DNA of 31,325 bases from a bacterium (lineage in GTDB: Bacteria; Orphanbacterota; Orphanbacteria; Orphanbacterales; Orphanbacteraceae): assembly GCA_025782575.1 (NCBI GenBank), contig JALGYY010000021.1, positions 1 to 31,325 of the forward strand. Reading direction: 5' to 3'. Below, piece after piece: positions 7,904 through 27,960 of this stretch. The position numbers and the translations under genes are program-made. Numbering within the stretch: position 1 is the stretch's first letter; every line of letters starts with the position of its first letter. The notes beneath the pieces are model-generated. The model saw only the letters and a list, made by a program, of their open reading frames with translations, had not been told where the DNA came from and searched no databases.

Positions 7904-7920
7904 CGGTCAGTCGCGCCTTT

Positions 7921-10153: not shown

Positions 10154-10188
10154 CCCCGCATTTCTCTTCGGGAAATAAACTACAGCAG

Positions 10189-10220
10189 AACGCCCCCCCG
10201 CGCGATTACGGGGGGGCGTT
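10189..10220. terminator. Two-way intrinsic terminator between convergent genes
   Basis: AACGCCCCCCCG (10189-10200) and CGGGGGGGCGTT (10209-10220) are a perfect 12-bp inverted repeat around an 8-nt loop. On the plus strand it runs into TTTATTAT; on the minus strand into a T-poorer tail. It lies 35 bp after the activator stop and 26 bp after the ppdK stop, so it probably serves both. Confidence 0.9.
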
Positions 10221-10246
10221 TATTATGTCGCTTCAAAGAGGCGCCT

Positions 10247-13036
10247 CTACTTTCGAGCCTTCTTTCTGCTTTTTTTCTTTGCTGTTTTCTTTCGGGCCTT
10301 AGGCTTTCCGACCGTGTTGCCGTTCTGCTCGATCGCCGCATGAGCTGCGGCCAGACGGGCAATCGGTACGCGGTACGGCGAACAGCTCACGTAGTCGAGT
10401 CCCAGCGAGTGGCAGAATGCGACCGAGTTCGGCTCGCCTCCATGCTCCCCGCAGATCCCCACTTTGAGGTTCGGTTTCACCGACCTCCCCTTCTCCACAC
10501 CGATTCTCATCAGCTCGCCTACCCCTTCGCGATCGACAACCTGGAATGGGTCGTCCTTCAGAATGCCGTGATCGACGTAATAGGGGAGGAACCGGCCCGC
10601 ATCATCTCGTGAGAGCCCGAACGCGGTCTGCGTCAGATCGTTTGTTCCGAAGGAGAAGAAGTCCGCCGATTCAGCTACTTTGTCCGCCGTCAGAGCGGCG
10701 CGGGGTATTTCGATCATCGTGCCTATCGTGTACTTCACATTGACCTTCTTGGCGGCGATCACCTCTTCGGCTACCCGCTGAACCACCTCACGCTGGAGCT
10801 CCAGTTCCCGCTTGGTCGACACGAGAGGGATCATGATCTCCGGAATGACCTTGATACCCGACTTCTGCACCTTACATGCCGCCTCCATGATCGCCCGCGC
10901 CTGCATCTCGGTTATCTCTTCATAGACGATTCCGAGGCGGCAACCACGATGGCCGAGCATGGGATTGAACTCATGAAGCCTGTCGACCGCCTCCTGAATC
11001 GCTTCCGGTTTGACGTTCATCTTCCTGGCCAGGCTCTTGATCTCGGCCGGAGTATGGGGGAGAAACTCATGCAGCGGCGGGTCGAGCGTGCGAATCGTAA
11101 CAGGAAGTCCGGCCATGACCTTGAAGATCCCTTCAAAGTCCTTGCGCTGCATGGGGAGCAGCTTCTTGAGGGCTTTCTTCCTCCCCGCCTTGTTATCGGC
11201 GAGAATCATCTCGCGCATGGCATCGACCCGCTCAGCGTCGAAGAACATATGCTCCGTACGGGCAAGCCCGATCCCCTCGGCCCCGAACTGCACGGCACGC
11301 CTGGAATCTTCCGGCGTCTCGGCGTTGGTCCTCACTTCGAGCCGGCGGAAACTGTCGGCCCATTTCATGATCTTCTCGTACTCCCGGTACAGGAGGGATT
11401 CACTCTTATCGAGTTCGCCAGTCACAACCCGCGTGATCTCCGACTCGATCGTAGGCACTTCACCCAGCATCACTTCGCCGGTCCCTCCATCAAGCGAGAT
11501 CCAGTCCCCTCTCTTGATGGTATGGCCCTGCACTTTAATCACACCCTTTTTCACATTGACACTCACGTCACCACAACCGGCGACGCAGCACTTTCCCATA
11601 CCCCGGGCAACCACAGCGGCGTGAGACGTCATTCCTCCCCGGGAAGTGAGGATCCCCTGAGCGACGGCCATGCCGTGGATATCGTCCGGTGAGGTCTCCC
11701 TGCGGACGAGAATGACCCGAGCTTTCGGATCGGCGACCACTATGCTTTCCGCGGAATCGGCTGTAAAGACAACCCGGCCGGTGGCGGCACCCGGTGAAGC
11801 GTTCAGCCCCTTGGCGACTACCCGCCGCTTCGCGGTAGGATCAAACATCGGGTGAAGGAGATGGTCGAGCTGATCCGGATCGACGCGCATGACCGCCTCT
11901 TTCCTCGTGATCAAGCCCTCTGCCACCATGTCGACGGCGATCTTGATTGCCGAAATCGCCGTTCGCTTTCCCGTTCTGGTCTGAAGCATCCAGAGTTTGC
12001 CCGCCTGAACGGTAAACTCGATGTCCTGCATTTCCCGGTAGTGCTTCTCGAGCTTTTTGTAGATTTTCTCGAGCTCTTTGTAGACCTTGGGCATCTCTTC
12101 TTCGAGCGACACGAGGTCGGTACCCAGCTCTGCTTTTCCGGCCAGATTGATCGGATGAGGTGTTCGAATTCCGGCCACCACGTCCTCGCCCTGGGCGTTG
12201 GTCAGGTATTCCCCATAAAAGCGCTTTGCTCCTGTAGCGGGATCACGGGTGAATGCCACACCTGTCGCGCTCGTCATACCCAGATTACCGAACACCATGG
12301 CCTGCACGTTTGCCGCTGTCCCCCAGTGGCCCGGAATCTTGTTGAGCCGGCGATAGTCGATCGCCCGCTTCACGTTCCACGAAAGAAAGACCGCACCGAT
12401 CGCGCCATAAAGCTGATCCATCGGCCTGTCAGGAAACTTGCTTCCGGTCTTCTTCGCAACGAGCGCTTTGAATTCAGCGACAAGTTGTTTCAGATGATCA
12501 GCGGAAAGATCGGAATCGCGGAGGACGTGTCCCTTCCTTTTTCTCTTCTCGAGAATGTTCTCGAATAGTTCGGAAGGAACGCCCAATACGACATTTCCGT
12601 ACATTTGAACGAATCGCCGGTAACTGTCATAGGCAGTCCGCGGGTTATCCATTGCGCGGGCAAGGCCGGCGACCGTACTGTCATTCAGACCGATATTTAG
12701 GACCGTATCCATCATGCCGGGCATGGAAAGGCGAGCCCCGGAGCGGACGGAGAGCAGCAGGGGGTTCTTCTTGTCGCCGAAGCGGCCGCCCATGGTCTTC
12801 TCCACACGGGCAATCGCCGCTTTGACTTCGGCTTTCAGGCCCGCGGGGAAACGCTCACCGCTTGCGGCGAATTCGTTGCAGACATCCGTGGTGATGGTGA
12901 ATCCCGCAGGTACGGGAATCCCCAGCCTGGACATCTCCGCCAGATTCGAGCCTTTGCCTCCGAGCAGATTCCTCATGTTAGAGCGGCCTTCTGCTTTTCC
13001 GCCGCCAAAGTAGTAGGCCATCTTCTTCTTGTTCAT
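10247..13036 (-). CDS. ppdK: Pyruvate, phosphate dikinase
   Basis: 929 residues. It interconverts ATP + phosphate + pyruvate with AMP + PPi + phosphoenolpyruvate in the cytoplasm. Domains: ATP-grasp N terminus (FGGGKAEG, GGKGSNLAEM, SVRSGA at 96-101), central phosphohistidine domain with GGMTSHAAVVARG (467-479; catalytic His472), and C-terminal PEP-binding barrel with GICGEHGGEP (860-869; catalytic Cys862). It is longer than the usual 870-880 residues, partly because of a Lys/Arg tail from about 910 (KPKARKKTAKKKSRKKARK), which looks like the basic tails of histone-H1-like proteins and has no place in the known mechanism. Transcribed alone; about 157 bp precede it without a clear promoter. 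Confidence 0.97.
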   Translation of the reverse strand: MNKKKMAYYFGGGKAEGRSNMRNLLGGKGSNLAEMSRLGIPVPAGFTITTDVCNEFAASGERFPAGLKAEVKAAIARVEKTMGGRFGDKKNPLLLSVRSGARLSMPGMMDTVLNIGLNDSTVAGLARAMDNPRTAYDSYRRFVQMYGNVVLGVPSELFENILEKRKRKGHVLRDSDLSADHLKQLVAEFKALVAKKTGSKFPDRPMDQLYGAIGAVFLSWNVKRAIDYRRLNKIPGHWGTAANVQAMVFGNLGMTSATGVAFTRDPATGAKRFYGEYLTNAQGEDVVAGIRTPHPINLAGKAELGTDLVSLEEEMPKVYKELEKIYKKLEKHYREMQDIEFTVQAGKLWMLQTRTGKRTAISAIKIAVDMVAEGLITRKEAVMRVDPDQLDHLLHPMFDPTAKRRVVAKGLNASPGAATGRVVFTADSAESIVVADPKARVILVRRETSPDDIHGMAVAQGILTSRGGMTSHAAVVARGMGKCCVAGCGDVSVNVKKGVIKVQGHTIKRGDWISLDGGTGEVMLGEVPTIESEITRVVTGELDKSESLLYREYEKIMKWADSFRRLEVRTNAETPEDSRRAVQFGAEGIGLARTEHMFFDAERVDAMREMILADNKAGRKKALKKLLPMQRKDFEGIFKVMAGLPVTIRTLDPPLHEFLPHTPAEIKSLARKMNVKPEAIQEAVDRLHEFNPMLGHRGCRLGIVYEEITEMQARAIMEAACKVQKSGIKVIPEIMIPLVSTKRELELQREVVQRVAEEVIAAKKVNVKYTIGTMIEIPRAALTADKVAESADFFSFGTNDLTQTAFGLSRDDAGRFLPYYVDHGILKDDPFQVVDREGVGELMRIGVEKGRSVKPNLKVGICGEHGGEPNSVAFCHSLGLDYVSCSPYRVPIARLAAAHAAIEQNGNTVGKPKARKKTAKKKSRKKARK

Positions 13037-13193
13037 AGAACCACAATCCCTTCTGGAGTATTCATCATTCGGGTATCATTGTCACAGCGTATAAGCTAAG
13101 TGGCGGGCAAGTCCAGCACAAGGGCCGTCGGGAAATATCTCTCGCGGCACTCATTGAGGGCAACCGGAAAAGGACTCGGGGACCACCTGGCCA

Positions 13194-13817
13194 TCAGCGG
13201 TCTGAAATGGACTCCTCGATATTCTGGAGAGCCGCAAGAAGCTCCTGCAGGAATGTAGCGGAGAACCGGTTGATCACGATGGCAGGATCGATCGACTCAA
13301 TCTGAGACAGGACCAGTTCATACTCACCAAGGGCGAAATAGGCTTGCGCCACGGCGAGCCGAACGTCCCGTATCTCGATCGATTCGTTCCCCCTCAGGCG
13401 AAACGATGAATCGATCAACAAGGCAGATTCGCCGGCGTTGGCCGCCTGCCGGAATTCATTCATGGAATTAAGGACAAGACACCGGCCGGCCTGAGCATCC
13501 GCTTCGACGAATCCACGGGCAACGGCCTGGTCCCAGAGATCGAGCGCTTCCGGATACATCTCGTTCATGTAACGGACCCATCCCAGTCCGGAGTAGCCAT
13601 CGCCAAGACTCTTGTTCGTTGCGATGGCCTCACCGAACCGCTTGTCTGACTCTGTCATGTCCCCCTCGGAGAAGGCGAACCAGGCCCGGTCGATCAGTTC
13701 GATGTATGGATCAACCGTGGGGCCATTGTTATCGTCACCGCATCCTGAGCCGAGTACGACAGCGAGAACCACTGCCGACGCCAAGGCTGACTTCCAGTAG
13801 GAATTCCTAGCTTTCAT
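13194..13817 (-). CDS. TPR-like lipoprotein
   Basis: 207 residues. A lipoprotein signal peptide ends VLGSGC with Cys26 as the acylated residue, followed by an acidic spacer GDDNNG, so it should be anchored in the outer membrane or periplasmic face. The rest is helical with TPR-like repeats (RAWFAFSEGDMTESDKRFGE, GYSGLGWVRYMNEMYPEALD, AQAYFALGEYELVLSQIE). It follows the giant beta-helix gene by only 7 bp and is the last gene of the cluster, so it is probably co-translated and may help export, assembly or anchoring of that protein; this is inference. Confidence 0.85.
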   Translation of the reverse strand: MKARNSYWKSALASAVVLAVVLGSGCGDDNNGPTVDPYIELIDRAWFAFSEGDMTESDKRFGEAIATNKSLGDGYSGLGWVRYMNEMYPEALDLWDQAVARGFVEADAQAGRCLVLNSMNEFRQAANAGESALLIDSSFRLRGNESIEIRDVRLAVAQAYFALGEYELVLSQIESIDPAIVINRFSATFLQELLAALQNIEESISDR

Positions 13818-13824
13818 AGCACCG

Positions 13825-16800
13825 TTACCTTACGAGGATCATTTTGCGGGTGGCGGTCTGCTCACCCGATTCGAGCCGGTAGAAGTAGACCCCGGACCCG
13901 GCCGAACGACCGGATTCATCAGTCCCTCTCCAGGCAGCCTCATGACGGCCCGCTTTCTGCACACCGGTCAACAGTGTTTTCACGAGCCGACCGCGAACGT
14001 CATAGACCCGAAGCGTCACGTCCTGTCGTTCCGGGAGGTCAAAGAGGATCCGGGTCACCGGATTGAAAGGATTCGGCGCATTGGCGTAGAGGGCGAAGAG
14101 CTTGGGAACAACTTCTTCGCTCACGGCACTCTTGGAGTAGCGTAATGCGTACGTCCCGCTCCCCTCGATCTCCGCGGTTACATCCGCGCGAACGGGGTCG
14201 ATCGTGGATTCGATTCTCTCCCACTCGTCCTCGACCCGTCTGTAGATCGAAAGGTGTGTCAGCTGATCCTTTTCCAGGTCAAATCGATCCGTTGGTGCCG
14301 TCAGATGAAGGGGTTGCGTCGGGTTCACTTGAGAGAAATTCACTCGATAAGCGGAGCTGAGAACCGACGACCCGTCGGGCGCTTCCCCTCCACCGGCATC
14401 CACCACTTCCATCAGGACGGCCCCTGATCGTCCGATCGCGCCGGGGAGCGCCGCGATCGTAATCAGACGATCCGAGCTCCTCACCCGCCCTCCTTCTCCC
14501 TTGAGGAAAAGAGTCGAGGAGAAGAGTCGATTGACGAAACCGACCACGCCGCATCGATCCACAGCGCGCACTTTCACCACAAGACTATCGCTCGTCTCCA
14601 GTGCGACGTTATCAGAGGAATAGACGGAAAGTCCTCCTGCTTGGAGCCTGAGCGGAACATTGACAGTATCGAAGTCAACTGTGTCACCGAGAACGACGCC
14701 GTTACTATCCACTACTTCGACGAATTCTCCATAGAGAAGATCGAGTGAGATCGAGTCGCGGGCGAGCCCTTCGTCAGGCACGATATGGAAGTTAGCCACG
14801 CCGGATATCGACGTATGAAGCAATACACCCATTGTGAGATCCGGAGCGGTCGTATCCGGGCAGATCGGATCGCTTGCCGACGCAACACCTATGTGAGCGT
14901 CGAGGTCGGCTGACGAATCAATTCCGGAAAAGAGCGTCGGCGAACATTCCTGATAGCGGAAGAAGCGCGGGTTCAACTGACCGGACGCGAAGTCCCACCG
15001 CTGATCCGTGTTACAGAACTGCGGATCACCGGACAGGTCGTCCGAGGATGGAGGAAGGTTCTGATAGTTACCGCCGCCGTTGGCCCACACGTTGTTGTGA
15101 GAGTATTCCGGCAAGCGCACACCGGCAAAGTGGGGGAAGAGGGACAGTCCGAAGCCGCCGTTATTCGTGACAACATTGTTGAAGATATGGAGCTCACCCT
15201 CCGGCTCGCTCAAGGAGATTCCACCTGCGGCGTTACGGAAGAAGACGTTGTTATCGACGGATCCCCCCGTCACCTGTTCCATTCGAATGCCGCCGTACTC
15301 AACCGCCGTGTTACTGGAAATGATGTTGCCGCGGATCACCGGGTCGCTGGTATCGAATATGTAAATTCCACCACCAATACCCGCTCTGTTTTTAAAGATA
15401 TAGTTACTGTAGATCCTCGGGGAGGTCGCCCCTGTGATCGAGATGCCCCCCCCCCAGTTTTCAGTCTGATTTGCTCGGAAGGCACAATCCCGAATGGTCG
15501 GGCTCGCCCCCTGGATCACCCTTATTCCGCCCCCGTTTGTAGTCTGGGCCGTGCCACTACGGAACTCGAGTCCTTCAATTATTGTGAGCGAATCGATCAG
15601 ATGGCTCATGTCACCGGCCTCAGTGTCCGTTCTCATGGCGATTGTGAGGACCGGACCGTTGCCGGCTCCCCGTATGATCGTTCTCGTATTCGTCAGGCGA
15701 GGGTTCGGCGCGGTCGAATCCGGATTGGCAGGATCAGGTAAGTTGGAAAAGCCCTCATTCCACCCCCCACGCATTACGATCGGCTCTCTAAGCACGAGAT
15801 TCTCGATGTAGGGGAATGCCGTGTCGGGCCGGGCAACCTCTACGGTATCGCCGGGGCTGACAACTGCGAGTACTCCCGCAATTGTAGGTGAAGCATTTTC
15901 TTTGCAGACATGTGGGAACACGGGGATATCGCTCGAAACTGTCTTCCTGACAAGAAATCTGTGGCCCGGCTCGGTACAGCCGGCTCCACGTGCACCCCAC
16001 CAGGATCGGGCGCAGGAATCGCGCAGCGCACTCCGCCCGGCCTGGATTTCTCGGAGGCTGTAGAGCAGGCCGAAGTCCCCGTTCCCGGGATCGCAGAAGG
16101 ACGGATCCGCGATTACATGAACCGGATTCGCCTGAGCACTGAGTACGAGCGAATCCCCCCCAGGGTTCTGGAAGAACAGATTGTCACTTATGTTTGCGCC
16201 CACCTCCTGGGTGGTCGCATAGCCCGCGCCCCCTTCGGAAAAGGCGACGATGTTTCTTTGGATGAGGACATTGGCGCCTTCCGTTTCTATCACGCCGGCG
16301 CCTTCCCCCGTGGCGTTGTTCGCATAGAAGGTATTGGACTCGTACCGGGAGAGAACCGGTGAGCTGACCGAATCGATATAGAGGCCCGCCCCCCGCTCTG
16401 CGGTGTTATCCGAGACAAGGTTCTGCGAGAACCGGGGCGACGCACCCTTCGATACGAATGCAGCTCCTCCCAGTATCGCCGTATTCCCGAAGATATGGTT
16501 GTTCCTAATTGTCGGTTCGGCGCCCGCGCCGATCCGTATGCCGCCGCCGAGCGAGTCACTTCCCCCAGTAATCCGGATGCCGTCGACCATCGTAGCATTA
16601 GGCCGATTCAGCAGCAGGGTTGAACCGACCGCCTCATCATCGATCTCGATGACCGAGCCGTTTCCGCCTCCATCAATAATCGTGATGTGAACCGCCGGAT
16701 CTCTCCCGGTTCCCACCAGAGGGAACCCTCCAAGCAGCTGAACGTTGGATGGCAGGGTGATGTTCTCGAAATAGGTACCCGCAACTATATTGACCGCGTC

Positions 16801-19800
16801 GATCGAGTCGCCGCTCGATATGCCGGCCATGGCAGCGACATCAATCGCATCCTGGATTCTATGAGCTGCTTTATCGGCCCTGTCATACGGATACTCGTTG
16901 GAGCCGTTCGGGTTCACAAAGTGGATCGCCGTCTTGCAGCCCACATCGTAGGCCCCTATATTCGTCCCGTTCCGCCCCGCAAGGATATTGGGAGAATGAT
17001 CGAATATTCTGAAATCGAGACCGGGGTTGCAATAACGGGGATTGTCCGAAATGTTCGTGGAATCCGCAGCCGGGTCGGGCAGGCAGACCGCGAAATCCAG
17101 GTCGCAATCGAAACCACGATTCTGAAACACGTTATTGTGATCGAACTCAATCCCAGTCCCGCCCCTGGCCTGCACTCCCTTACCATTGAATGTGATGCTG
17201 TTGTTGTAGATTTGCGGGGCAGAGTCAACAACACGAATCGCCCAGCTGTTAATGGAGTTTCGGGTAATCGTATTGTTTGCGAAACGGCCGCCGGCGCCGC
17301 CCAGGTAAACAAGTGATCCGTCCTCTTCACTCGTACCGCTTTCGACGATCAGATTTCGCTCGAAACGGGGTCGGGATCCGTCGGTAGCGAAGAAAATCGC
17401 CCCCTCCGATTCCGATCGACCATTATTGAATAAATTGTCGATGATCGTGGGCGAAGCGTCGCCGGTGATGAGCATGATCCCACCTGAATCCGCTTTCCCG
17501 TCTTCGAACTGGAATCCTTCGATGATCGTGGTGGAATCGACACCGTTCCCGGCTGTAATGATGCGCCGGGAGTTCCCTCCAGTGAACCGGCTCCGGAAAA
17601 AGATCCGCGTATCTTCCGTGAAGTCGTTGACCGCATATCCCCCTTTGTAGGAAACACCGGACACCAAATCAAACTGATCGCTATAGGATCCCTGCGACAC
17701 CTTCACTGTGTCCCCCGCACTCAGGTGGGGGGAAATCGCCGATATTGTTCTGGAAGCGTTTCTTTTACATCGGAATGGAAAATGGGATTCCGGTGCAGTG
17801 GCATTAGCCAGAAAGACCTCATCGTCACAGATTGCCGTCGGTGAGATCGGAAGGGCACCAGCAACCGTGTCACCAGTACAACTGAACGTGTCGTCCGCTG
17901 CCGGCGAGCAAGTGCTGATTCGGAAATCCAGGTTCTCGGAATCCGCGAAATCAGGATCCTCTTCGATGTTGTTCCGCGCCGGTATGCGGCCCGAGAGAAC
18001 AACGATGTTCTTTTCCTGTCCGGTGGAATCCTGATTTCCTTTTACGACATTCTGGTTAACGTCCTTGGAGAGTTCATTGAACACGAGCCCTCCCATGCCG
18101 CCTTCGTTCAACGCCACGACGTTCATAAGGAATCGCACACGGTTGTCGTTGTTCAGACCGCCGAATTCGACATAGAAACCGCCTCCGGCGGGCTCGCCCG
18201 GCTCAGAGCTGATCGTGTTGTTCACGATCGTGTTCTGAATGATGAACGGAATGGCATTTTTGGAATTATCATTCCCCTGCACGTCGATTCCGGCGGCACG
18301 CCACTCCGGATGAGTCGCTCGATCGACCCGGTTTCCCACGACGAGATTGTTTCGGATCAATGGCCGCGCCGTACTGGAAACAGCTATTCCAGGACCGCTC
18401 ACGCCGTCGGCATGTGTGATTACACAGCCCTCGACGCCACCCCGCGGAACCAGGATCGAATTCCCCACAGTGAAGTGAACCGTCGGCTCACCTTCGCCGA
18501 TTCCCCTCAATATTGTGTTGGACGGACTGGCCACTCGTTCCGTGAACTGATTATCCGTCCACCCACCCTGAAGGAAGGCACCGCCTGTCATCGTGACGTT
18601 CGCATCATAGGTTCCTGCAGCAATTCGAACAGTATCCTGCGCTCCCGCAACACCTGCGATCTTCTGGAAATCCGATGTCGCGTCTTCCGGCGTGGCGTAG
18701 GGGAACGTCCCCTCCTGGTCACCCGGAACTACGTAGTGTGTCGAAAGGTTGCAGCCCGCACCGAGAGCCCCGATCGGAAAGCTACCAGGGGCGATATCAT
18801 CGAGGCCGCTCTCGGAGAACATGCGATAGTCTCCGACTTCAGCGTCGCAGAAAAACGGGTTGAGTGACGAAGAATCGATCAGTGTCGGAAGGCACCCTCC
18901 GAGGAAATCATCATCGTTGCCGTACAGATTGGATGATCGGAGTTCCACGGTAGCGCCACCTGAACATCCGAATACGGCTCCGCCGGTATTTGACGCAAAG
19001 AGGGAGAACTCGAACTGGACACTGCTCCCGTTCTCGGCCTGAATCAGTGCGTTAGACGGAGTAAATGTCTCATTCCCAACGACACTGATGTGCTTGAACA
19101 GTGAGGTCCCACCTTCGACCCGGACGAGGGCGCCATCGATGTCCGGCGCCCCGGTCAGGACGAGGAAGCTGGCAGTGAACGGGCCGCCCGTGCCGTCAAT
19201 GCGAATCACTGCTTCATTCGGGTCAATCGGGAACAGGACAGTCCCCGAAAGACTGGGATCAGGTCCATCCTGTTCGAAGCCGGGCGAGAAACCGCCGAGC
19301 AGGACCATCTCTTCGGAGATCACCAGATTGGTGAAATACTCTCCTGAAGCCACGCGAATCGTATCCCCCGGTGCCGCAATATTGACAGCCTCTTCAATTG
19401 TTCGTGCTGCATTCGCCGGAACGCTGAATGGAAAAACATCGCCGCCGCTGACCGAAACGTACTTCGTGCCCGCCCGGCAACCGACTTCCCATGCACCGAT
19501 GGCGGTTCCGTCCGAAGCCGCATCGCGGATCGGCGACTCGATGAAGAGCCTGTAGTCGTTCGGCTCACCGCAGAATACAGGCGCCGTATCAAACAGGTTG
19601 GTAATCGAATCGGGTTCGCAACCGAAGAAATCCCGCCCCTCGCCGTTGTCACTGAAAACGTTGTAGGTGACGTCGCCTCCCTGGCTGTCACCGCAATAGA
19701 TGGCGAACCCAGCCGAAGTCTTTCGAAAGATATTGTCTCGAATCAGCGGATTTCCGGATTCAACGTGCAGGATCCCGGCCTCCGGTGATGCGCGGCAAAA

Positions 19801-20484
19801 CGCGAAGGTATTGTGAACAATTGTAGGCGAACCTTCGCCAACGAATAGAGCGGCGCCGCGAGCACCACCCGATTGGCAGTTGAAGAAGATGTTCCGCTCG
19901 ATCCGAGGAGAACCGGCCCGCACGAATACTCCTGCCCCATCCGACTGGTTCGCAATAATTTCCCGCAGGTAAAACCCCCGAAACAGTGTGGATTCATCCG
20001 GGCCGCTGAATGCATAGGTGGTGTCGAACGTGGTGTCTATATCCACGATGGTCGTCTCGACCTGAACGATCGTCGAATCGTAGTCGAAGATCACCGCCTG
20101 CTCGTTGATCGGCCTTGTGATGACCGTCCACAGACTGTCGATATCGAACTGGTTTCCTCCACCGCCGACCGCCACGTCCGCATCCCAGCCTCCGAGAACC
20201 GACACACCCTGAGGGATGCGGATCGTCTCATCGAAACGGAATCCGAATGATTCGAAATCGTTGAAATCGATCCCGGATACGAGAACGGTGTCACCTGTTT
20301 CCGCAACATCGAGAGCGGCCTGTATGCTGTGGGCGGGTGTGAGGGGAGACAGGTATGCTCCTCCCGGATCCTCGGGTATGCCGTAGCTGTTATGTACGAC
20401 GTATCTCGTGGAGCCTTCCACCGAGATTGGAGCCGCAAGCAGCGTCAGAAATGACAGAAGGAGAAAGCCGTTTCGGCCGTTCAT
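13825..20484 (-). CDS. Giant six-module beta-helix surface protein with C-terminal sorting domain
   Basis: 2219 residues. Signal peptide to about VEG/ST (residue 24). Six tandem right-handed beta-helix modules follow at about 26-336, 340-578, 582-886, 888-1183, 1187-1503 and 1508-1875. Each opens with a DUF1565-like pattern (TI..A...A..GDTV.VA.G.Y...L.L....L.GGW) and continues with helix rungs such as SPTIRDCAFRANQ. Modules 1, 2, 4, 5 and 6 close with FC or YC, usually followed within about ten residues by DYR or a similar DF.. sequence, and a second Cys 31-39 residues later in 1, 2, 4 and 5. Residues 1876-2125 are beta-rich without helix repeats. The tail (2136-2219) is a FlgD/T9SS-like sorting domain: NAPNPFNPVTRILFDLP, LRVYDVRGRLVKTL, GVYFYRLESGE, ending RKMILVR. 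Similar proteins are surface adhesins or polysaccharide-binding proteins; no lyase residues could be identified. The ATG has AGGAG 11 nt upstream. Confidence 0.92.
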   Translation of the reverse strand: MNGRNGFLLLSFLTLLAAPISVEGSTRYVVHNSYGIPEDPGGAYLSPLTPAHSIQAALDVAETGDTVLVSGIDFNDFESFGFRFDETIRIPQGVSVLGGWDADVAVGGGGNQFDIDSLWTVITRPINEQAVIFDYDSTIVQVETTIVDIDTTFDTTYAFSGPDESTLFRGFYLREIIANQSDGAGVFVRAGSPRIERNIFFNCQSGGARGAALFVGEGSPTIVHNTFAFCRASPEAGILHVESGNPLIRDNIFRKTSAGFAIYCGDSQGGDVTYNVFSDNGEGRDFFGCEPDSITNLFDTAPVFCGEPNDYRLFIESPIRDAASDGTAIGAWEVGCRAGTKYVSVSGGDVFPFSVPANAARTIEEAVNIAAPGDTIRVASGEYFTNLVISEEMVLLGGFSPGFEQDGPDPSLSGTVLFPIDPNEAVIRIDGTGGPFTASFLVLTGAPDIDGALVRVEGGTSLFKHISVVGNETFTPSNALIQAENGSSVQFEFSLFASNTGGAVFGCSGGATVELRSSNLYGNDDDFLGGCLPTLIDSSSLNPFFCDAEVGDYRMFSESGLDDIAPGSFPIGALGAGCNLSTHYVVPGDQEGTFPYATPEDATSDFQKIAGVAGAQDTVRIAAGTYDANVTMTGGAFLQGGWTDNQFTERVASPSNTILRGIGEGEPTVHFTVGNSILVPRGGVEGCVITHADGVSGPGIAVSSTARPLIRNNLVVGNRVDRATHPEWRAAGIDVQGNDNSKNAIPFIIQNTIVNNTISSEPGEPAGGGFYVEFGGLNNDNRVRFLMNVVALNEGGMGGLVFNELSKDVNQNVVKGNQDSTGQEKNIVVLSGRIPARNNIEEDPDFADSENLDFRISTCSPAADDTFSCTGDTVAGALPISPTAICDDEVFLANATAPESHFPFRCKRNASRTISAISPHLSAGDTVKVSQGSYSDQFDLVSGVSYKGGYAVNDFTEDTRIFFRSRFTGGNSRRIITAGNGVDSTTIIEGFQFEDGKADSGGIMLITGDASPTIIDNLFNNGRSESEGAIFFATDGSRPRFERNLIVESGTSEEDGSLVYLGGAGGRFANNTITRNSINSWAIRVVDSAPQIYNNSITFNGKGVQARGGTGIEFDHNNVFQNRGFDCDLDFAVCLPDPAADSTNISDNPRYCNPGLDFRIFDHSPNILAGRNGTNIGAYDVGCKTAIHFVNPNGSNEYPYDRADKAAHRIQDAIDVAAMAGISSGDSIDAVNIVAGTYFENITLPSNVQLLGGFPLVGTGRDPAVHITIIDGGGNGSVIEIDDEAVGSTLLLNRPNATMVDGIRITGGSDSLGGGIRIGAGAEPTIRNNHIFGNTAILGGAAFVSKGASPRFSQNLVSDNTAERGAGLYIDSVSSPVLSRYESNTFYANNATGEGAGVIETEGANVLIQRNIVAFSEGGAGYATTQEVGANISDNLFFQNPGGDSLVLSAQANPVHVIADPSFCDPGNGDFGLLYSLREIQAGRSALRDSCARSWWGARGAGCTEPGHRFLVRKTVSSDIPVFPHVCKENASPTIAGVLAVVSPGDTVEVARPDTAFPYIENLVLREPIVMRGGWNEGFSNLPDPANPDSTAPNPRLTNTRTIIRGAGNGPVLTIAMRTDTEAGDMSHLIDSLTIIEGLEFRSGTAQTTNGGGIRVIQGASPTIRDCAFRANQTENWGGGISITGATSPRIYSNYIFKNRAGIGGGIYIFDTSDPVIRGNIISSNTAVEYGGIRMEQVTGGSVDNNVFFRNAAGGISLSEPEGELHIFNNVVTNNGGFGLSLFPHFAGVRLPEYSHNNVWANGGGNYQNLPPSSDDLSGDPQFCNTDQRWDFASGQLNPRFFRYQECSPTLFSGIDSSADLDAHIGVASASDPICPDTTAPDLTMGVLLHTSISGVANFHIVPDEGLARDSISLDLLYGEFVEVVDSNGVVLGDTVDFDTVNVPLRLQAGGLSVYSSDNVALETSDSLVVKVRAVDRCGVVGFVNRLFSSTLFLKGEGGRVRSSDRLITIAALPGAIGRSGAVLMEVVDAGGGEAPDGSSVLSSAYRVNFSQVNPTQPLHLTAPTDRFDLEKDQLTHLSIYRRVEDEWERIESTIDPVRADVTAEIEGSGTYALRYSKSAVSEEVVPKLFALYANAPNPFNPVTRILFDLPERQDVTLRVYDVRGRLVKTLLTGVQKAGRHEAAWRGTDESGRSAGSGVYFYRLESGEQTATRKMILVR
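14860..20409 (-). repeat. Six tandem beta-helix modules within the giant gene
   Basis: Protein-level repeats of about 240-370 residues; DNA identity between copies looks low, so the duplication is old. Modules 4 and 6 share an opening variant with an extra Cys (FRCKRNASRTI and PHVCKENASPTI), while 2, 3 and 5 have FPF, FPY or YPY without Cys there. This suggests the array grew by copying more than one unit. Confidence 0.8.
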
Positions 20485-20567
20485 GGCGAAAGAAACTCCT
20501 TTCCAAACAAAAAGGGCGAGTACCCGATGTTGATAGCCCCACCCCGGTCAATTCTGCAGGAGCGGCT

Positions 20568-20596
20568 ACTATAGCAACCGTCTATCCGGCTGTCAA
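20568..20596 (-). promoter_or_regulatory. Strong sigma-70 promoter of the giant beta-helix gene
   Basis: On the minus strand TTGACA (20591-20596) and TATAGT (20568-20573) are exactly 17 bp apart. The -35 lies inside the last codons of the asparaginase gene. Start near 20561 gives a leader of about 77 nt containing the AAAGGAG ribosome site. Confidence 0.8.
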
Positions 20597-21682
20597 TTCA
20601 CCCGGAACGTGTGGATGACGGGAAGAAACGCGGCGGACCGGCCTCCCCGCCGGGGCTCCGGCAGGTGACTCCACTGCCCCCGTAAAATCTAATTCGAACG
20701 AAGATTCCAGACGGCCTACACGCCGCCCCACCCAGTTCGTAACGGGCTGAGTGGTCGGTCCGGCGCCCCCCCATGGATCGATACCGAGAAGCCGAAGGGC
20801 GTGGCGCGCAGCTACCTCGATCTCATCCAGGAAACCATCTTCCAGTTTGATCGCGATCCCGAGCCGCCGACCGGGAAGACCGATACCGATCACTCCCTTG
20901 GCACCGACCTTCGAAAAGAGGACATCCCCCCCCTCTTCCATCAGGAGTGTGTCCAAACGGCCGTCTCCCGCGATCAGGAGTGGGTGACTCATCATCGCCA
21001 TTCGTACACGGCTCGCCGCATCGGCCCGTCTTCCGTCAAAGGAATCCGTTGCAATTCGGGCGAACGAAGTCGCAAGCGCCGACAGGGCGCCTCGAAACGT
21101 CGGAATCCCACAACCGTCGACAGCGGGAATGGCCATGGGACAGGGTGTGCCGGTCACCTCTTCCAGAGCAAGTGTCACCGCTCGCTGTACCGGATGATCC
21201 GCTTCAATGTAGTCTTCGATCGGCCAGCCTTTGAGCCTTGCCAGCGCCAGCATGCCGGCGTGTTTACCTGAGCAGTTATTGTGAATCCGCCCGAATGGGA
21301 TCCCCTTGCCGACCAGGTCATCGCGTGCACCCTCGTGCATCGGCGCGTGAGGTCCGCAGAGCAGATCCTCCTCTCCGAGACCGATCCGAGCGAGGATCTC
21401 CCGCACGATCTCCACATGGATCGGCTGCCCGCTGTGAGAGGCAACCATCATGGCCAGGTGGCGCACCTCGAAACCGAAATGCTCCATCCCACCCGCCTCA
21501 ATGAGCGGAAAGACCTGGATCGGCTTGGCGGCGGACCTGAAAAAAGTCTCGTAATCGGGATCACCGAGGGAATAAACGATCTCCCCGGAAGGGGAGGCGA
21601 CGGCAATATGGCCCACGCGCCGGCCTTCCAGGCCGCCACCACGAAATGATCTCACCAGTATTGGACTCATGCAGCAGCTCAT
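20582..21682 (-). CDS. L-asparaginase II-type (PF06089 family) enzyme
   Basis: 366 residues; the start may be the ATG at 21668-21670 (four codons in) since neither has a good ribosome site. It belongs to the Rhizobium etli-type asparaginases, unrelated to E. coli AnsA/AnsB. The known catalytic set is present with even spacing: Ser50 and Lys53 in RSAAKPIQ, Cys137 and Lys140 in NNCSGKHAGM, Cys191 in DGCGIPTF. Known members hydrolyse asparagine to aspartate and ammonia using zinc held by the Cys/Lys cluster. No signal peptide, so it is cytoplasmic. It lies between two exported-protein genes, 27 bp after one, and carries the next gene's promoter in its 3' end. The Gly/Ala/Pro/Arg-rich C-terminal tail is unusual. 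Confidence 0.9.
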   Translation of the reverse strand: MSCCMSPILVRSFRGGGLEGRRVGHIAVASPSGEIVYSLGDPDYETFFRSAAKPIQVFPLIEAGGMEHFGFEVRHLAMMVASHSGQPIHVEIVREILARIGLGEEDLLCGPHAPMHEGARDDLVGKGIPFGRIHNNCSGKHAGMLALARLKGWPIEDYIEADHPVQRAVTLALEEVTGTPCPMAIPAVDGCGIPTFRGALSALATSFARIATDSFDGRRADAASRVRMAMMSHPLLIAGDGRLDTLLMEEGGDVLFSKVGAKGVIGIGLPGRRLGIAIKLEDGFLDEIEVAARHALRLLGIDPWGGAGPTTQPVTNWVGRRVGRLESSFELDFTGAVESPAGAPAGRPVRRVSSRHPHVPGELTAG

Positions 21683-21709
21683 TGGGCAGGCCGTTACAAA
21701 CGGCGTGGA

Positions 21710-23335
21710 CTAGCGAACGACGATAAACTTGGTGACCTGCTCGTCCCCTGTGGCTATGGACTTCACGTAGAGGAGATAGACACCGCTCACGACAAGCTCG
21801 CTATCCTCATTCCGCATATCCCAGTTGGAAGTGCCACCAAGAGCGCCGCCACGGTGTTCCCATTCGCGAATGAGATCGCCTGCCGCGGTGTAGATCTGAA
21901 CGAGCGCCTCGGACGGCAGATGTTGGATCTGGATCCGCTCTTCATTTTCCTCCCAGGCGGCTCTTCTCTTGTAGGGATTCGGGACAACCGTAATCCTCTC
22001 AAGGTCCTCGGATGATACGGACCGGGGGAAAATGCGCTCCTCGCGAAGCTGGTCCGAGCTTTCGCTGGAAGTGAGGGTATCGAAGGTCGTGACAAAGTAA
22101 TTATAGGGGAACCCGTTGTGGACCCCCTCGCGATCCATGTAGACAATGGGGTCCTGCCGGAGGACCGGGAGGTCTTCCTCATTGCAGAACTTGAATTCCT
22201 TCAAAATGATGAAGTTGTCCGCGTTAGTGATATCGGACCGGTAGATTCGGTACCCGTCTATCTTACGGTAGAGCACGCTCAGAACACCCAAGGTATCGTT
22301 CGAAGCCGGTACGAACCCGATCACCTGAATGTCCGTTCTATCCGTCACCCAGGTGGAGTCAAAAGTCGTATCCGCCTCTACGATGAGGGTATCAATCAGA
22401 AGCTGACAGGTATCGAGATCGATCCCGGGAACAGCCACCGGATCGCATGTGTCTACCACTACGGTCGTATCCCGGAATGTGACGAATCGGAATGACAATC
22501 CGAAATCAAAGTCCGCCCATTCCCCCGGCCGGCAGAAGAGTAATTCCGATCGTCCATCGTCCGATGAGGAGACACGATCGGATTCGCTCGCCCCATGCTC
22601 AATGTAACTCCAGGCGAACCGAAGTCTATGAGAGATCGCCGGAATTCCGAACCGCTCTCCCTCGTTGACGGATCCCTCGGAAAGGGAAAAGAAGATCCCG
22701 GCTTTTAGCTCGACCGAATCGATTCCCGGCCGGAAGTCCGCAGGGATCGTTATGAACTCAGACTCTCCGGTTCCTGCCTCCTGCCAACTGAACTGGATCG
22801 GATTCCCTGAAATCGTACCAGCCTCGCCGAGGGAATCGGCCCCCTCGGATCGGACGAAGATTGTGACACTCTTACAGATATCGGGGAGCCCGCGCGACAC
22901 AGGAAGAGCGGAGCCCGACCAATAGGTGAACGCCTGCGGGTTGGTTGAGTCAAAGCTCGCCTCGGCCACCTCGGGATTCGTGAACTCTCCGACTTCGGCC
23001 GAGGACCGGATCTCAATATCGAGGTCACAGTCTCCCTGGAAATCGCCCGAGATTTCAAACCCGGCTGTCCCGCCCCATGAGGTGTCGACGACGATGAGCT
23101 CGCTGATTTCATTTTTCGGCGGATTGCGCCATTCGAGATGAATCGCCTGAGCATCGGGAGTCGCCGTAATGGCGATTTCCGGAGTATTAATCTCGGCCAT
23201 GCCGATGACCGGAACGAGCAGAGCAATCGCGAGCAAAGCTCTCAACAGGATTGGGATGAACCGTCGCACTGAAGGGGCGGCACGTCCGCGACATTTCAAC
23301 ATGCCCGGCACGCAGCCGTTCTGTCGATCACTCAT
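21710..23335 (-). CDS. Exported 541-residue protein with C-terminal sorting domain
   Basis: A signal sequence with a long basic N-region (hydrophobic part about 27-46, ending GMA/EI) leads to a fibronectin-like stretch (ITATPDAQAIHLEWRNP). The middle is beta-rich with Cys and Asp/Thr-rich segments (about 289-335), then a fibronectin-like part (YRKIDGYRIYRSD, NYFVTTFDTL). The tail (451-541) is a T9SS/FlgD-like sorting domain: VPNPYKRRAAW, LPSEALVQIYTAAGDLIREW, SGVYLLYVKS, ending KFIVVR. No enzyme motif was recognised. The ATG at 23333-23335 has AAGGAGAG upstream. It is 81 bp after the upstream lipoprotein gene and may be exported with its operon partners. Likely surface-exposed or released; function unknown. 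Confidence 0.85.
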   Translation of the reverse strand: MSDRQNGCVPGMLKCRGRAAPSVRRFIPILLRALLAIALLVPVIGMAEINTPEIAITATPDAQAIHLEWRNPPKNEISELIVVDTSWGGTAGFEISGDFQGDCDLDIEIRSSAEVGEFTNPEVAEASFDSTNPQAFTYWSGSALPVSRGLPDICKSVTIFVRSEGADSLGEAGTISGNPIQFSWQEAGTGESEFITIPADFRPGIDSVELKAGIFFSLSEGSVNEGERFGIPAISHRLRFAWSYIEHGASESDRVSSSDDGRSELLFCRPGEWADFDFGLSFRFVTFRDTTVVVDTCDPVAVPGIDLDTCQLLIDTLIVEADTTFDSTWVTDRTDIQVIGFVPASNDTLGVLSVLYRKIDGYRIYRSDITNADNFIILKEFKFCNEEDLPVLRQDPIVYMDREGVHNGFPYNYFVTTFDTLTSSESSDQLREERIFPRSVSSEDLERITVVPNPYKRRAAWEENEERIQIQHLPSEALVQIYTAAGDLIREWEHRGGALGGTSNWDMRNEDSELVVSGVYLLYVKSIATGDEQVTKFIVVR

Positions 23336-23416
23336 CGACCCTTACTCTCCTTGCCGGACCAGCAGGCAGGACTCTTGTCCAGTCCCAACTCGGTCCGTGT
23401 TCATTAACTTGAGCCA

Positions 23417-25453
23417 TCAAGAACGGAATTTTTCTCCGAACAGGTTGACCATTATTAATTCGATCGCCTGCTTCGTAACCAGAGGGTCGAAGTAATAGAG
23501 GGGCATCCCGATATAGACTACATTCCCCCTCCTACCGTCTGACGGAATAAACAATGCGACAGGCAGCTCGCTACCGATGGGGACACCATCCGGATCGATC
23601 TCGCGCCGGAACTCCCATAGTGGGACGACACCCCGGTCTTTCCTGTACTTGAGCCTCTCGCAGAGTGCAATTCCTTCAAGTACTCTGAGCTGTGCCCGTG
23701 TGCTGTCTACGATGAGATCGGGAATCCCGGCAAAGAGTGACTTGGCGCTCCAGAGCTTGTCGAACCTCTCGCTGATCTGAGTCGTCTCGATACCACAGTA
23801 TTCGTAGATCGGATGAGGGATAGAATCAGCGACAACCGGATGGAACCAGACCATCTCCGAACCGCAGTTGTCCGGCGAGGCATTGAACAGGTGCCAGCAG
23901 GGACTGGGAATGGGGACAAACCCGGTATCCACAAAGTCATTGTCGGGGGTGAACCCCCAGCCGGGGATGAAACCGGAAATGAGCAGATTCCCCCCCGCGT
24001 CTACATAGGACCAGATCGGATTTTCGCTCCGATCATTCAGAGAGGAAACGAACGGCTGTGCCGCATTGAGTTCATCCTGAAGCGAGAGGATGAGTGTCGT
24101 TGATTTGCTCATCTCCCGGACCGGCGGCTTGGGAATATTACCTCCGGACAGAGGCCTGAACACGACATCGAGACTGAAATTCTCAAGGAGGGTATCCTCC
24201 CAGAACGGCTCGTACAAGTGGGGTGGCGGGAAGAAATCCGGATCATCGTCGACCCAGAAGTCGACCCAGTGCATGACCGATGTCGTTTCGACATCGACCG
24301 GCCCGGCAAAGACCTGGAACTCGAACTTTCCCTCCACGATCAGCCCCGCTTCGTCCCTGGCGCGAGCGAAGAAAGTGTGGACGCCCTTGGTAGGGGTGAA
24401 TCTCTCCCCCGGTCCTGGAAATCGCCTGTCAGCCAGATCCCATGGTCCCCAAATGAGGTTATCGTACGCGTGACTGTAGCCGGTGACGACACCGTCATAG
24501 GATCGGAGGTCCGCCGTCCAGCTGAAGATGAGCTCCGTCCCCTCGAAGATCTGGCCTCTCAAAGGAGCCGAGGTACTGGCCCGCTCACCCATCACGTTGG
24601 ATCGGATAAGGAACGCCCCGGACGGGTTCTCGGCAACTCCCCACAGGAAGTAGTTCGTCCCGTTGATCGGAATCTGCTCCACAGCCCCGGCCTCATCGAT
24701 CGACCTAACAAAGAACATGTGCCTGGTAGCCGCGCTCACTGTCGGTTCGAGGTTTCGGAGAACAACGGATTGCGTGTCGGCACTCACTCGCACCCAATCC
24801 AGACGGTTCCATGTCTCTCTCGTGACCGGCGCGGAACTGACATGGCCGTATTTTCGCTCGAGCTGACCGACTGTTTCATGGAAAAACTCGTATGCCGCTA
24901 CCCGGTTGTCCGGCCTGTCGGGATCGGTCCCCTCCCAGTGCACACTCACTGCGGGACCTGTCACGCTACCCGATTCCAGAGGCCCCCTCGTGATCCGCGT
25001 CGTCGGCGCAACCGTAACCGAGTTGAAAGTGATAAGCGCAGGAGAAGGATCCCTCTTGTCCAGATTGTCGATCGCCCGGATGAAGAACGTATGGAAGCGG
25101 AAGAACTGCTCTGTAACGATCTCGTCTCCCCCGTCTCCCGGGATTGTATCGAAGACGCAGCAGGAGTCGGAGGCGATAACGAAAGTCGAGCCGGTCAACG
25201 CCGTGGAGATCCAGTCCGATGTGTCATCCCAGGCATACTCGAACCCCGAGATCTCGCCGTCCACATCCTCGCCGAACCAGTTGAGATCAACCAGGTAGGA
25301 ATTCTTATCAAATGGCTTAGGTCCACCGGATATTTCGGTTCGAGGGGCGGCATTCGTAATGGGACCGGAAAGATCCCCATCATCACAGGCCCCTGCGATG
25401 AGGATCACCGCCGCAGCCAAAGTAATTGCAAGTAACCAGTGCTTTACATTCAT
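23417..25453 (-). CDS. Lipoprotein with three Ig/Fn3-like domains and a Rossmann-like C-terminal part
   Basis: 678 residues. Lipoprotein signal ending IAGAC (Cys23). Three beta-sandwich-like domains follow at about 36-145 (APRTEISGGP, EISGFEYAWDD, FIRAIDN), 150-265 (VHWEGTDPD, FFVRSIDEAG) and 280-383 (IFSWTADL, FFARARDEAG). The 385-678 part is different: ILSLQDELNAAQPFVSSL, IWSYVDAGGNLLISGF and GNVVYIGMPLYYFD, ending with a helix. It reads like an alpha/beta domain of the GATase1-like type often attached to surface proteins, but no catalytic Cys-His pair could be seen. The first domain is clearly related to that of the next lipoprotein upstream. Gap to that gene is 19 bp, so they form one operon. 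Function unknown. Confidence 0.85.
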   Translation of the reverse strand: MNVKHWLLAITLAAAVILIAGACDDGDLSGPITNAAPRTEISGGPKPFDKNSYLVDLNWFGEDVDGEISGFEYAWDDTSDWISTALTGSTFVIASDSCCVFDTIPGDGGDEIVTEQFFRFHTFFIRAIDNLDKRDPSPALITFNSVTVAPTTRITRGPLESGSVTGPAVSVHWEGTDPDRPDNRVAAYEFFHETVGQLERKYGHVSSAPVTRETWNRLDWVRVSADTQSVVLRNLEPTVSAATRHMFFVRSIDEAGAVEQIPINGTNYFLWGVAENPSGAFLIRSNVMGERASTSAPLRGQIFEGTELIFSWTADLRSYDGVVTGYSHAYDNLIWGPWDLADRRFPGPGERFTPTKGVHTFFARARDEAGLIVEGKFEFQVFAGPVDVETTSVMHWVDFWVDDDPDFFPPPHLYEPFWEDTLLENFSLDVVFRPLSGGNIPKPPVREMSKSTTLILSLQDELNAAQPFVSSLNDRSENPIWSYVDAGGNLLISGFIPGWGFTPDNDFVDTGFVPIPSPCWHLFNASPDNCGSEMVWFHPVVADSIPHPIYEYCGIETTQISERFDKLWSAKSLFAGIPDLIVDSTRAQLRVLEGIALCERLKYRKDRGVVPLWEFRREIDPDGVPIGSELPVALFIPSDGRRGNVVYIGMPLYYFDPLVTKQAIELIMVNLFGEKFRS

Positions 25454-25472
25454 GATTTAACCCCGGAGTTCT

Positions 25473-27863
25473 CTACGGAACGAAGAACTCAACCGTCCTT
25501 CGTTCGCCTTCGGCGCCCCCTATTCCTTCCAGATCAATCGGGGTGACAATGAACCGATATCTTCCTCGGAAGCCGCCGATGTTGATTACGAGATTAAGAG
25601 TACCGTCCTCCTCGGGGCTGGTCTCTACGTTTCTCACGATATTGGTCTGGGGATTCTGACTGTCTTTCAGGAGGATGAGACTATACTTGACGAGAATATC
25701 CTCGTTCGGCCCATCCACGTCCGTCACGTTCAGGGAGATGGTGATGAGGTTTCCTGCTTCGGGGACGAGAGTAGAATTCTCCTGGGGTGAGAGAACCTCG
25801 ACCACGGGCTTAAAATTGACAAAGAACTGGAATGACGCGCGCGCCTTTTCCCGTCTTCCGAATGAGTCGATTCCACCGATATTGAGGATGTGAGCTACAT
25901 CCTGCGGGCTCTCGCGAATATTGTCTATGGTACTGAAAAAGATCTGTCTCGAATCGAGCGATTCAGGGGAGACGACACCCGTCCCTGTAATATCCCAGAA
26001 GGACCCGACCACCGAATCACCGACCACCGAATCCCTGTCGGATATGGACCACCAGAAGAAGAGCTGGCTCAGGTAAGGAATACGAATTCCTTCCTGTTCA
26101 GTAATATCAATCGGTTCTTCCACATCGGGATCATTCGCCGGAAGGTACTTGACCGAATCGATCCGCGTTTCCGGGTCGTAATTAATAGTGAAACGCCGCC
26201 GGGCCGACCCTTCTCCCGTGCTCCATACACCTGTTTCATCCTGGGTCTCGACGCTGAACTGGTACTGATCCTTCGGGGTGAGCGCCTCGTATATTGCGGT
26301 CGTCGTATCGGGTCCCACCGTGATCGGCTGAGGATCGAATCCCTGCATCTGATAGCGGTACGCAATCACTTTCCCGCCGGCAGAAACTCCTCCCCAACAG
26401 AATTTGACGTTTGAAAACGCCGTGAGCGTCTCCTCTTCAGCAGGACTTCGGAGCGTGTCAATCCCCAGAGGAGTCAGCCTCTCTTCAAAACAGAAACGGA
26501 GTTCAGGCGCGATAACGAGCGATGGTATCAGATCGGTCACGTCGAGGACAATAAAACCTCTGTCGTCATTTCCGGCGTAGAGTGTTGATCCGTCAAGCGA
26601 AACGCCGGTGACATCTGCGGAAAAGTCGAGCCGGGAAAGGACAGACGGATTCACCGGATCACTTACGTCGATCGTGGCGAGGCCGTTGGACCCGTCAGCA
26701 AGATAGAGAACTCCGTCACCCGTAATCAGGTCGCTGGCGAATCCGCCGGTGTTCAGCATGGAAAGGGTGGTATCGAGTCCTCCAGCCACATCCAACGAAA
26801 TCGTCCAGAGCCCTTCGCGCCCGTCGGCGACAAAAAGCAGATCGTCCTGCAAATGGAGTGAGCGTGCCGAAGACCGGAAATTGAACGGCCGAAGCCTCGC
26901 ACCCTGTTCAGGGGGAAGGAAGATCAGCTCACTCCTCGACGGATCGAATTCCAAGGCGAAGATCCCCGCGGTATCGGCTGCCACGTAGACGAGCCCATCC
27001 TGCGAAATTACGTCCAGAAACGGTGTTCGGGTATTGGGTCGGAACCGGGCCAGAAAAACGGGATCGACTGGAGCACCGATATCAAGAGCGATGACGCCGT
27101 TTCTTCCGTCTGCGAGGAACAGAAAGTCCCCGTCCTGATCGATGCCGGTAACGGACCGCCCGAGAGTCAGATACTCACCTACAAGTACCGAATTGGGCGG
27201 ATCACTGATATCGACGATCTTCATGCTCCCTTCGCCGTCAGCGATATAGGCGTAGTTATCACGGATAACTAAGTCGAGACCGGTCCCCCCCGTAAACACA
27301 GTCCTCACCCGTTGAATATCGTCGGGATTGCTGATGTCATAAATGTCGAGGCCGTTTTCTCCGGCGGCAACGAACAGGTAATCCCCGGATCGGATGAGGC
27401 GAAGAGCGACTTCGCGCAGAATGACCGATCGTGGCTCGACCTGGGTAAATGCTTCAAAGTTAACGAAATCGGGCGTGCGATCCTCTTTACCCTCGTTGTC
27501 GATCGCCCGTACCCAGAAGATGTGGTCTTTTACCTGCGCCTGATCACCGCCGATCGCCGTCGGAAAGACGAACTCGGAATCGGTCTTGGCGGTGAAATGC
27601 CATTCCACTCCTCTCCGGGCGGTATCACCGATCGCGTATTCATACCCCCGGATCAACCCATCATCGTCGAACCCCTTCCAGAAAAGGTGTACACGATAGA
27701 AAGTGGACGTTGAATCCACAGGTCCCACCGTGATCACCGTCTCGGGAGCCTTGTTCTTATCCGGTTCCGGTGGATCGGTCTGCTCGCACCCTAAAACCAG
27801 CAAATATCCGGCAAGGAGAACGAGCAAGAGGAGAGACAGGTCGAGCAGCCTTTTTCGTGGCAT
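25473..27863 (-). CDS. Lipoprotein with seven LVIVD-type repeats (predicted beta-propeller)
   Basis: 796 residues from the ATG at 27861-27863; an in-frame TTG at 27902 would leave almost no leader after the predicted promoter. Lipoprotein signal ending LVLGC (Cys26). Next is an Ig/Fn3-like domain (about 37-140) related to that of the following gene. Seven repeats (about 150-445) fit one seven-bladed propeller: YLFVAAGENGLDIYDIS, YAYIADGEGSMKIVDIS, FLFLADGRNGVIALDIG, LVYVAADTAGIFALEFD, LLFVADGREGLWTISLD, VLYLADGSNGLATIDVS and TLYAGNDDRGFIVLDVT. The C-terminal third has further beta-sandwich segments (FCWGGVSAGGKVIAYRY; LSPQENSTLVP...). LVIVD proteins are surface proteins of unknown function. 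First gene of the minus-strand cluster, behind a strong promoter. Confidence 0.87.
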   Translation of the reverse strand: MPRKRLLDLSLLLLVLLAGYLLVLGCEQTDPPEPDKNKAPETVITVGPVDSTSTFYRVHLFWKGFDDDGLIRGYEYAIGDTARRGVEWHFTAKTDSEFVFPTAIGGDQAQVKDHIFWVRAIDNEGKEDRTPDFVNFEAFTQVEPRSVILREVALRLIRSGDYLFVAAGENGLDIYDISNPDDIQRVRTVFTGGTGLDLVIRDNYAYIADGEGSMKIVDISDPPNSVLVGEYLTLGRSVTGIDQDGDFLFLADGRNGVIALDIGAPVDPVFLARFRPNTRTPFLDVISQDGLVYVAADTAGIFALEFDPSRSELIFLPPEQGARLRPFNFRSSARSLHLQDDLLFVADGREGLWTISLDVAGGLDTTLSMLNTGGFASDLITGDGVLYLADGSNGLATIDVSDPVNPSVLSRLDFSADVTGVSLDGSTLYAGNDDRGFIVLDVTDLIPSLVIAPELRFCFEERLTPLGIDTLRSPAEEETLTAFSNVKFCWGGVSAGGKVIAYRYQMQGFDPQPITVGPDTTTAIYEALTPKDQYQFSVETQDETGVWSTGEGSARRRFTINYDPETRIDSVKYLPANDPDVEEPIDITEQEGIRIPYLSQLFFWWSISDRDSVVGDSVVGSFWDITGTGVVSPESLDSRQIFFSTIDNIRESPQDVAHILNIGGIDSFGRREKARASFQFFVNFKPVVEVLSPQENSTLVPEAGNLITISLNVTDVDGPNEDILVKYSLILLKDSQNPQTNIVRNVETSPEEDGTLNLVINIGGFRGRYRFIVTPIDLEGIGGAEGERRTVEFFVP

Positions 27864-27930: not shown

Positions 27931-27960
27931 ACTATACCAAAGCCTTTTCCAGAGTGTCAA
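27931..27960 (-). promoter_or_regulatory. Strong sigma-70 promoter of the surface cluster
   Basis: On the minus strand TTGACA (27955-27960) and TATAGT (27931-27936) are 18 bp apart. Start near 27924 gives a leader of about 60 nt. The hexamers are identical to those before the giant beta-helix gene. Confidence 0.75.

Follow-up and report, generated by a model that had tools for sequence, protein, structure and literature searches.

A candidate type IX secretion-linked surface gene block with a conserved three-gene core and variable neighbors

Type IX secretion (T9SS) is known mainly from cultured Bacteroidota; SprB of Flavobacterium johnsoniae, for example, is a giant surface protein exported by this route, and its gene stands next to genes for accessory proteins. 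On the surface of Porphyromonas gingivalis, PorZ and PorU are held through the PorV and PorQ barrels (PMC8545088). Among T9SS signals, type-A domains are the most frequent, and type B needs PorP/SprF (PMC10202324). Here, we analyzed a stretch of 31,325 nucleotides (the window), which is the entire contig C30 of a 4.88 Mb genome in 49 contigs (G000) from an uncultured relative of Candidatus Eisenbacteria and in which an earlier note had picked out six genes as a candidate surface system. Our reading, which we hold to be about evenly balanced between right and wrong, is that these genes encode a T9SS-linked surface module with a conserved core and exchangeable cargo; we infer that its products are exposed and docked at the surface, form a complex, and bind a ligand.

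The locus resembles the PorU-PorV-PorQ-PorZ system (PMC8545088) in encoding a predicted surface protein, here called tail541, whose C-terminal domain is PorZ-like, and in having sister genes near PorV/PorQ-family genes. It differs in that tail541 has no recognized PorZ propellers, the window cluster has no PorV/PorQ, the block adds two Fn3 lipoproteins, and there are several tail541-type copies per genome. Like the SprB operon, the block places a predicted-exported giant beside accessory proteins, but this giant has a type-A tail rather than the type-B domain of the SprB adhesin system (PMC10202324) and a beta-helix rather than SprB repeats, there is no sign of gliding, and Pfam and NCBIfam scans found no PorP/SprF-like partner among the block's proteins. 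With the Sus-like systems of Bacteroidota (PMC5080379) it shares surface-type lipoproteins and, at sister loci, a TonB-dependent receptor beside tail541-type genes; the window's annotated genes gave no Pfam match to a SusC-like TonB-dependent receptor or a SusD-like lipoprotein. Lipoprotein 1 has the LVIVD repeats of LVIVD/choice-of-anchor B proteins, but here an Fn3-type lipoprotein carries the propeller as an insertion.

Layout of the block and its lipoproteins

All six open reading frames (ORFs) proposed in the earlier note, which had reported minus-strand genes 7 to 97 bp apart, were recovered on that strand, with gaps of 19, 81, 27, 97, and 7 bp (Table 1). They are transcribed in the order lipoprotein 1, lipoprotein 2, tail541, asparaginase II, giant, and TPR lipoprotein, followed on the same strand by pyruvate, phosphate dikinase (PPDK). 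Lipoprotein 1 starts at an ATG; the mechanical ORF opens farther out, at a TTG at 27902. An Rfam scan of the whole window matched a tRNA alone.

Table 1. Features of the block and its conserved neighbor in the window
Feature	Position	Strand	Description
First-gene promoter	27931..27960	-	TTGACA-18-TATAGT
Lipoprotein 1	25473..27863	-	Lipobox, Fn3-like N-domain, LVIVD propeller (~residues 150-455), Fn3-like C-terminal part
Lipoprotein 2	23417..25453	-	678 aa; lipobox, three Fn3-like domains (33-383), further C-terminal domain
tail541	21710..23335	-	Exported-type protein, PorZ-like C-terminal sorting domain (442-541)
Asparaginase II	20582..21682	-	Cytoplasmic; optional block member
Giant-gene promoter	20568..20596	-	TTGACA-17-TATAGT
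Giant beta-helix protein	13825..20484	-	2219 aa; type-A/FlgD_ig tail (~2137-2217)
TPR lipoprotein	13194..13817	-	207 aa; found in the family only
PPDK	10247..13036	-	TIGR01828, 1374 bits; conserved block neighbor

The two lipoproteins do share an N-terminal domain, as had been claimed: they are 40% identical over about 145 aa in this genome, and the lipobox cysteine is invariant in the alignments of lipoprotein 1, lipoprotein 2, and the TPR lipoprotein. In Bacteroidota, the cysteine of exported surface lipoproteins is followed by K-(D/E)2 or a comparable signal (PMC5080379); the residues in that position here show a weak acidic bias with few CRKEE-like cases and no clear export signal of the Bacteroidota kind.

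Pfam LVIVD repeats match lipoprotein 1 at 97 bits; assignment to the choice_anch_B proteins was rejected, with a score of 15 against a cut-off of 100. The propeller is missing from lipoprotein 1 homologues outside the window's family, in which the profile match breaks off at about position 144 and resumes at 455-488; the simpler explanation is that it was gained in this family rather than lost elsewhere. The repeats of the TPR lipoprotein fall slightly under the Pfam cut-off, and no match to this protein was found in the non-family loci read.

Lipoprotein 2 belongs to no Pfam family, a search with 16 members giving chance-level matches only, and a PDB sequence search with profiles of lipoprotein 1, lipoprotein 2, and tail541 returned no match. 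A structure of lipoprotein 2 was predicted from eight sequences (mean pLDDT 60), and in this model residues 33-383 resemble tandem Fn3 domains (Foldseek E down to ~1e-10). Structural re-alignment, which covered residues 33-381, gave a Z of about 9, modestly over background, with a match list almost wholly of Fn3 and Ig. Motif reading and strand order raise the idea that the C-terminal domain might be glutamine-amidotransferase-like. The lipoprotein 2 gene has a tandem duplicate in G003 (L038/L039) and three tandem copies in G428 (L171); in G001 it carries one in-frame TAA (L034/L035, C43:29174-31207), which is either an assembly error or a sign of a broken copy.

Promoters with identical hexamers had been placed before the first gene and the giant gene, and both are present. 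The exact pattern TTGACA-N16-18-TATAGT occurs eight times in the 4.88 Mb genome, two of them within this stretch, where about 0.02 would be expected. The first-gene promoter is near-invariant in seven of seven family genomes; that of the giant gene persists in G001 and G003 but has decayed in G004 and G006 and is missing from G002. As a separate observation, seven of the eight exact matches in G000 precede exported-looking genes (N-termini read by eye; small numbers), and the pattern may perhaps mark a surface-protein promoter class in this genome.

Gene order in the family and in other phyla

The window's phylum is represented in the genome collection compared by seven genomes, all of one family (G000-G006). 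In the six that could be read whole (G000-G004 and G006), the genes run in the order lipoprotein 1, lipoprotein 2, tail541, giant, TPR lipoprotein, and the fragmented G005 is consistent with this as far as it can be read; the scattering that the earlier note had named as contrary evidence was not what we found. Giant orthologues measure 2216 to 2273 aa in five family genomes. Because family synteny reaches well past the cluster, we widened the comparison beyond the family.

A lipoprotein 2 profile matched 47 of 386 sampled genomes, many through the N-domain alone, and in the phylum of G331 homologues occur in 43 of the 47 genomes and in every one of the 26 good ones. Outside the family, 34 genomes have lipoprotein 1 and then lipoprotein 2 on the same strand. 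At these loci, a tail541-type gene comes directly next in 23 and beyond an insertion on the opposite strand in 4 more, a FlgD-tailed protein lies directly upstream in 24, and asparaginase and PPDK lie downstream in 13 and 20, respectively; since the loci were chosen by lipoprotein 2 match and many come from one phylum, these counts are not independent events. The full order FlgD-tail, lipoprotein 1, lipoprotein 2, tail541-type, asparaginase, FlgD-tail, PPDK is present in seven genomes (G331, G406, G410, G411, G412, G417, and G418) and equals the order in the window, where the giant fills the second FlgD-tail position. Families f26, f67, f70, f135, f159, and f215 lie outside both the window's phylum and that of G331, which brings the number of phyla to at least three. 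The conserved core is lipoprotein 1, lipoprotein 2, and the tail541-type protein. The proposed six-gene unit stands in that its order is kept and its core recurs across at least three phyla, but the propeller and the TPR lipoprotein are lineage-specific and the slot of the giant is exchangeable.

A different explanation of the same arrangement is that these are independent surface proteins, co-expressed or co-inherited beside PPDK without forming a physical complex. The long family synteny would fit this, as would the variable presence of the asparaginase and cargo genes, the giant's own promoter in some genomes, and the fact that PPDK and asparaginase are ordinary metabolic enzymes. Yet the order and strand of the trio are kept across phyla, whereas the sigma-54 activator gene that flanks PPDK in the window is absent elsewhere wherever the 3-6 kb past PPDK is readable, and we regard this explanation as unlikely.

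Asparaginase was correctly named in the earlier note: the protein matches Asparaginase_II (PF06089) at 338.8 bits against a cut-off of 25, over positions 1-321 of 322, and is single copy in G000. It is present in G000, G002, and G005 only and absent from four of the seven family genomes; although optional in this family, it occupies the same place in another phylum. The cargo positions vary as well, the downstream FlgD-tail slot holding a subtilase in G412 and G277 (with homologues in five other genomes) and the upstream FlgD-tailed proteins falling into several groups with little mutual similarity outside the tail. In the window, a divergent MFS/spermine-synthase-like/TPR gene (28012-31080, plus strand) stands before lipoprotein 1; a FlgD-tailed gene on the cluster strand takes its place in G003, G004, and G006, so the MFS/spermine-synthase-like/TPR gene may have been inserted so as to part cargo from core.

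These neighbors could also be read as a protein- or peptide-utilization locus, in which secreted enzymes or binders supply amino acids, removal of the amide falls to asparaginase, and PPDK connects the carbon with PEP. Consistent with this are the FlgD-tailed subtilase in the cargo slot of several genomes, the asparaginase adjoining tail541 in two phyla, and PPDK downstream in 20 non-family genomes; however, the window cluster has no protease, its cargo being the beta-helix protein, asparaginase is missing from most lineages, and the block includes no transporter; we hold this reading to be distinctly improbable. PPDK adjoins the block across phyla (window, L046, L114, L118, L123, L180, L182-L187, L197, L199, and L200), which places a central-metabolism gene beside surface genes.

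Sorting tails and type IX genes

FlgD- or T9SS-like tails had been ascribed to two of the proteins; both tails are of the sorting type, but they belong to different classes. The tail of the giant matches the type-A model TIGR04183 at 37.4 bits against a cut-off of 23 (residues 2137-2217 of 2219), and the protein also has Pfam beta-helix and FlgD_ig matches, with CHU_C at 17.3 against a cut-off of 27. Identification of the giant as NosD was rejected (TIGR04247, 51.7 bits versus 300; the beta-helix matches in part only).

In the window's tail541, no TIGR04183 match was found; instead, the protein matches the last ~90 positions of PorZ (profile 667-757) at 42.7 bits, and the PorZ C terminus is matched too by 13 of 15 tail541 relatives. 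A full PorZ identity was rejected, since this score falls short of the equivalog cut-off of 260 and the body is not recognized as propellers. Across seven genomes, a profile of the tail541 tail picked up 25 genes (3-4 each) with scores over 80 bits, all other tails scoring below 63 bits; judged by sequence, the tail541-type sorting domain is a class separate from ordinary type-A tails. Structure prediction for tail541 from seven homologues gave a mean pLDDT of 37 and no usable fold.

The earlier note was right that no T9SS core gene lies in the window; core genes are found elsewhere in the genome. SprA over the cut-off and C25 (sortase-like) peptidases are present in eight of eight genomes searched, and type-A tails in G000 number at least 75 matches. 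The GldM model TIGR03517 gave no match in the searched genomes and none in the controls either. The PorV/PorQ family accounts for 11-15 matches per genome, not all above the cut-off (G000-G004, G006, and G031), an expansion of the family. With SprA, C25, PorV/PorQ-family genes, and many type-A tails in the genome, the reading of the tails as sorting signals is sound, and they fit the type IX route proposed for them.

Of the 25 tail541-type genes picked up by the profile, each one that is not part of a window-type cluster has a PorV/PorQ-family gene no more than about 5 kb away, and many stand immediately ahead of it; in more distant genomes, some tail541-type genes have no PorV/PorQ neighbor within the stretch read. 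No PorV/PorQ gene lies in the window-type clusters of six family genomes and G031, which have the two lipoproteins instead. The order at the sister loci is TonB-dependent receptor, tail541-type, PorV/PorQ, and the pairing of tail541-type and PorV/PorQ-family genes also occurs in further phyla.

Alternatively, tail541 and the lipoproteins might be a general accessory of T9SS attachment, with a PorZ-like role for all cargos, instead of a dedicated surface system. A PorZ-like C-terminal domain distinct from the cargo tails and in low copy number, sister genes near PorV/PorQ-family genes, and lipoprotein 2 homologues in all the good genomes of one phylum would be expected of such an accessory. Only about the last 100 residues of tail541 match PorZ, however, far below the full-model score, its body does not look like propellers, and several tail541-type paralogues per genome suggest specialization; we consider a general accessory very unlikely.

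A proposed docking platform and its sister loci

The earlier note had the products build one surface complex, with the propeller and beta-helix as putative binding faces and the TPR lipoprotein as a possible helper; an assembled complex is plausible. How the surface module would work can be outlined from the literature on PorZ/PorU attachment and type-A signals, from which we take tail541 to be exported and docked, the Fn3 lipoproteins to belong to a platform, and the type-A cargo to be variable. Lipoproteins 1 and 2, with their Fn3-like domains, would be lipid-anchored in the outer membrane, and the C-terminal domains of tail541 and the giant would direct these two proteins across that membrane via the SprA/PorV translocon. 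A PorV/PorQ-type barrel would then hold tail541 at the surface, where it would make up a platform together with lipoproteins 1 and 2. The giant, with its type-A tail, would be cargo, a binding fiber at or beside this platform; a subtilase occupies its slot in other lineages. Asparaginase would stay in the cytoplasm, possibly acting on products of the surface work. Two observations weigh against this picture: the window-type clusters hold no PorV/PorQ gene, and the lipoproteins show no clear export signal of the Bacteroidota kind.

More doubtful than the module itself, and on balance improbable, is a stronger form of this proposal: that the trio is a new, widely inherited T9SS platform that has PorV/PorQ-type docking of its own, takes interchangeable cargo (the beta-helix giant, a subtilase, and others), and in several phyla is genetically coupled to asparaginase and PPDK and so to central carbon metabolism. 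In the open-licence papers searched, we found no description of the lipoprotein 1-lipoprotein 2-tail541 trio and no paper joining Eisenbacteria and type IX secretion. What makes the locus of interest is that a surface gene set with a distinct sorting-tail class is inherited across at least three phyla and is near-universal in one. If the trio is a docking platform, candidate-phylum bacteria gain a defined surface apparatus, and the many PorV/PorQ paralogues and the two T9SS tail classes become a testable question.

The shared N-domain is not confined to the window cluster. A profile search found three lipoproteins with it per family genome, and one extra in G003, all in a window-type locus or in a locus of the type on contig C13. 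The latter, a sister cluster in G000 (L057, C13:118000-137000, 3621-16821 on the plus strand), holds genes for a TonB-dependent receptor, a PorV/PorQ-family protein, an NHL lipoprotein, a tail541-type protein, a lipoprotein with the shared N-domain, and two FlgD-tailed proteins, and its arrangement is repeated in G001-G003 (L058-L060). A shorter trio of TonB-dependent-receptor-like, tail541-type, and PorV/PorQ-family genes recurs in G000 (L134, C21), G031 (L135, C46), and G002 (L136, C3); ExbD/TonB-like genes come next after the trio at L134.
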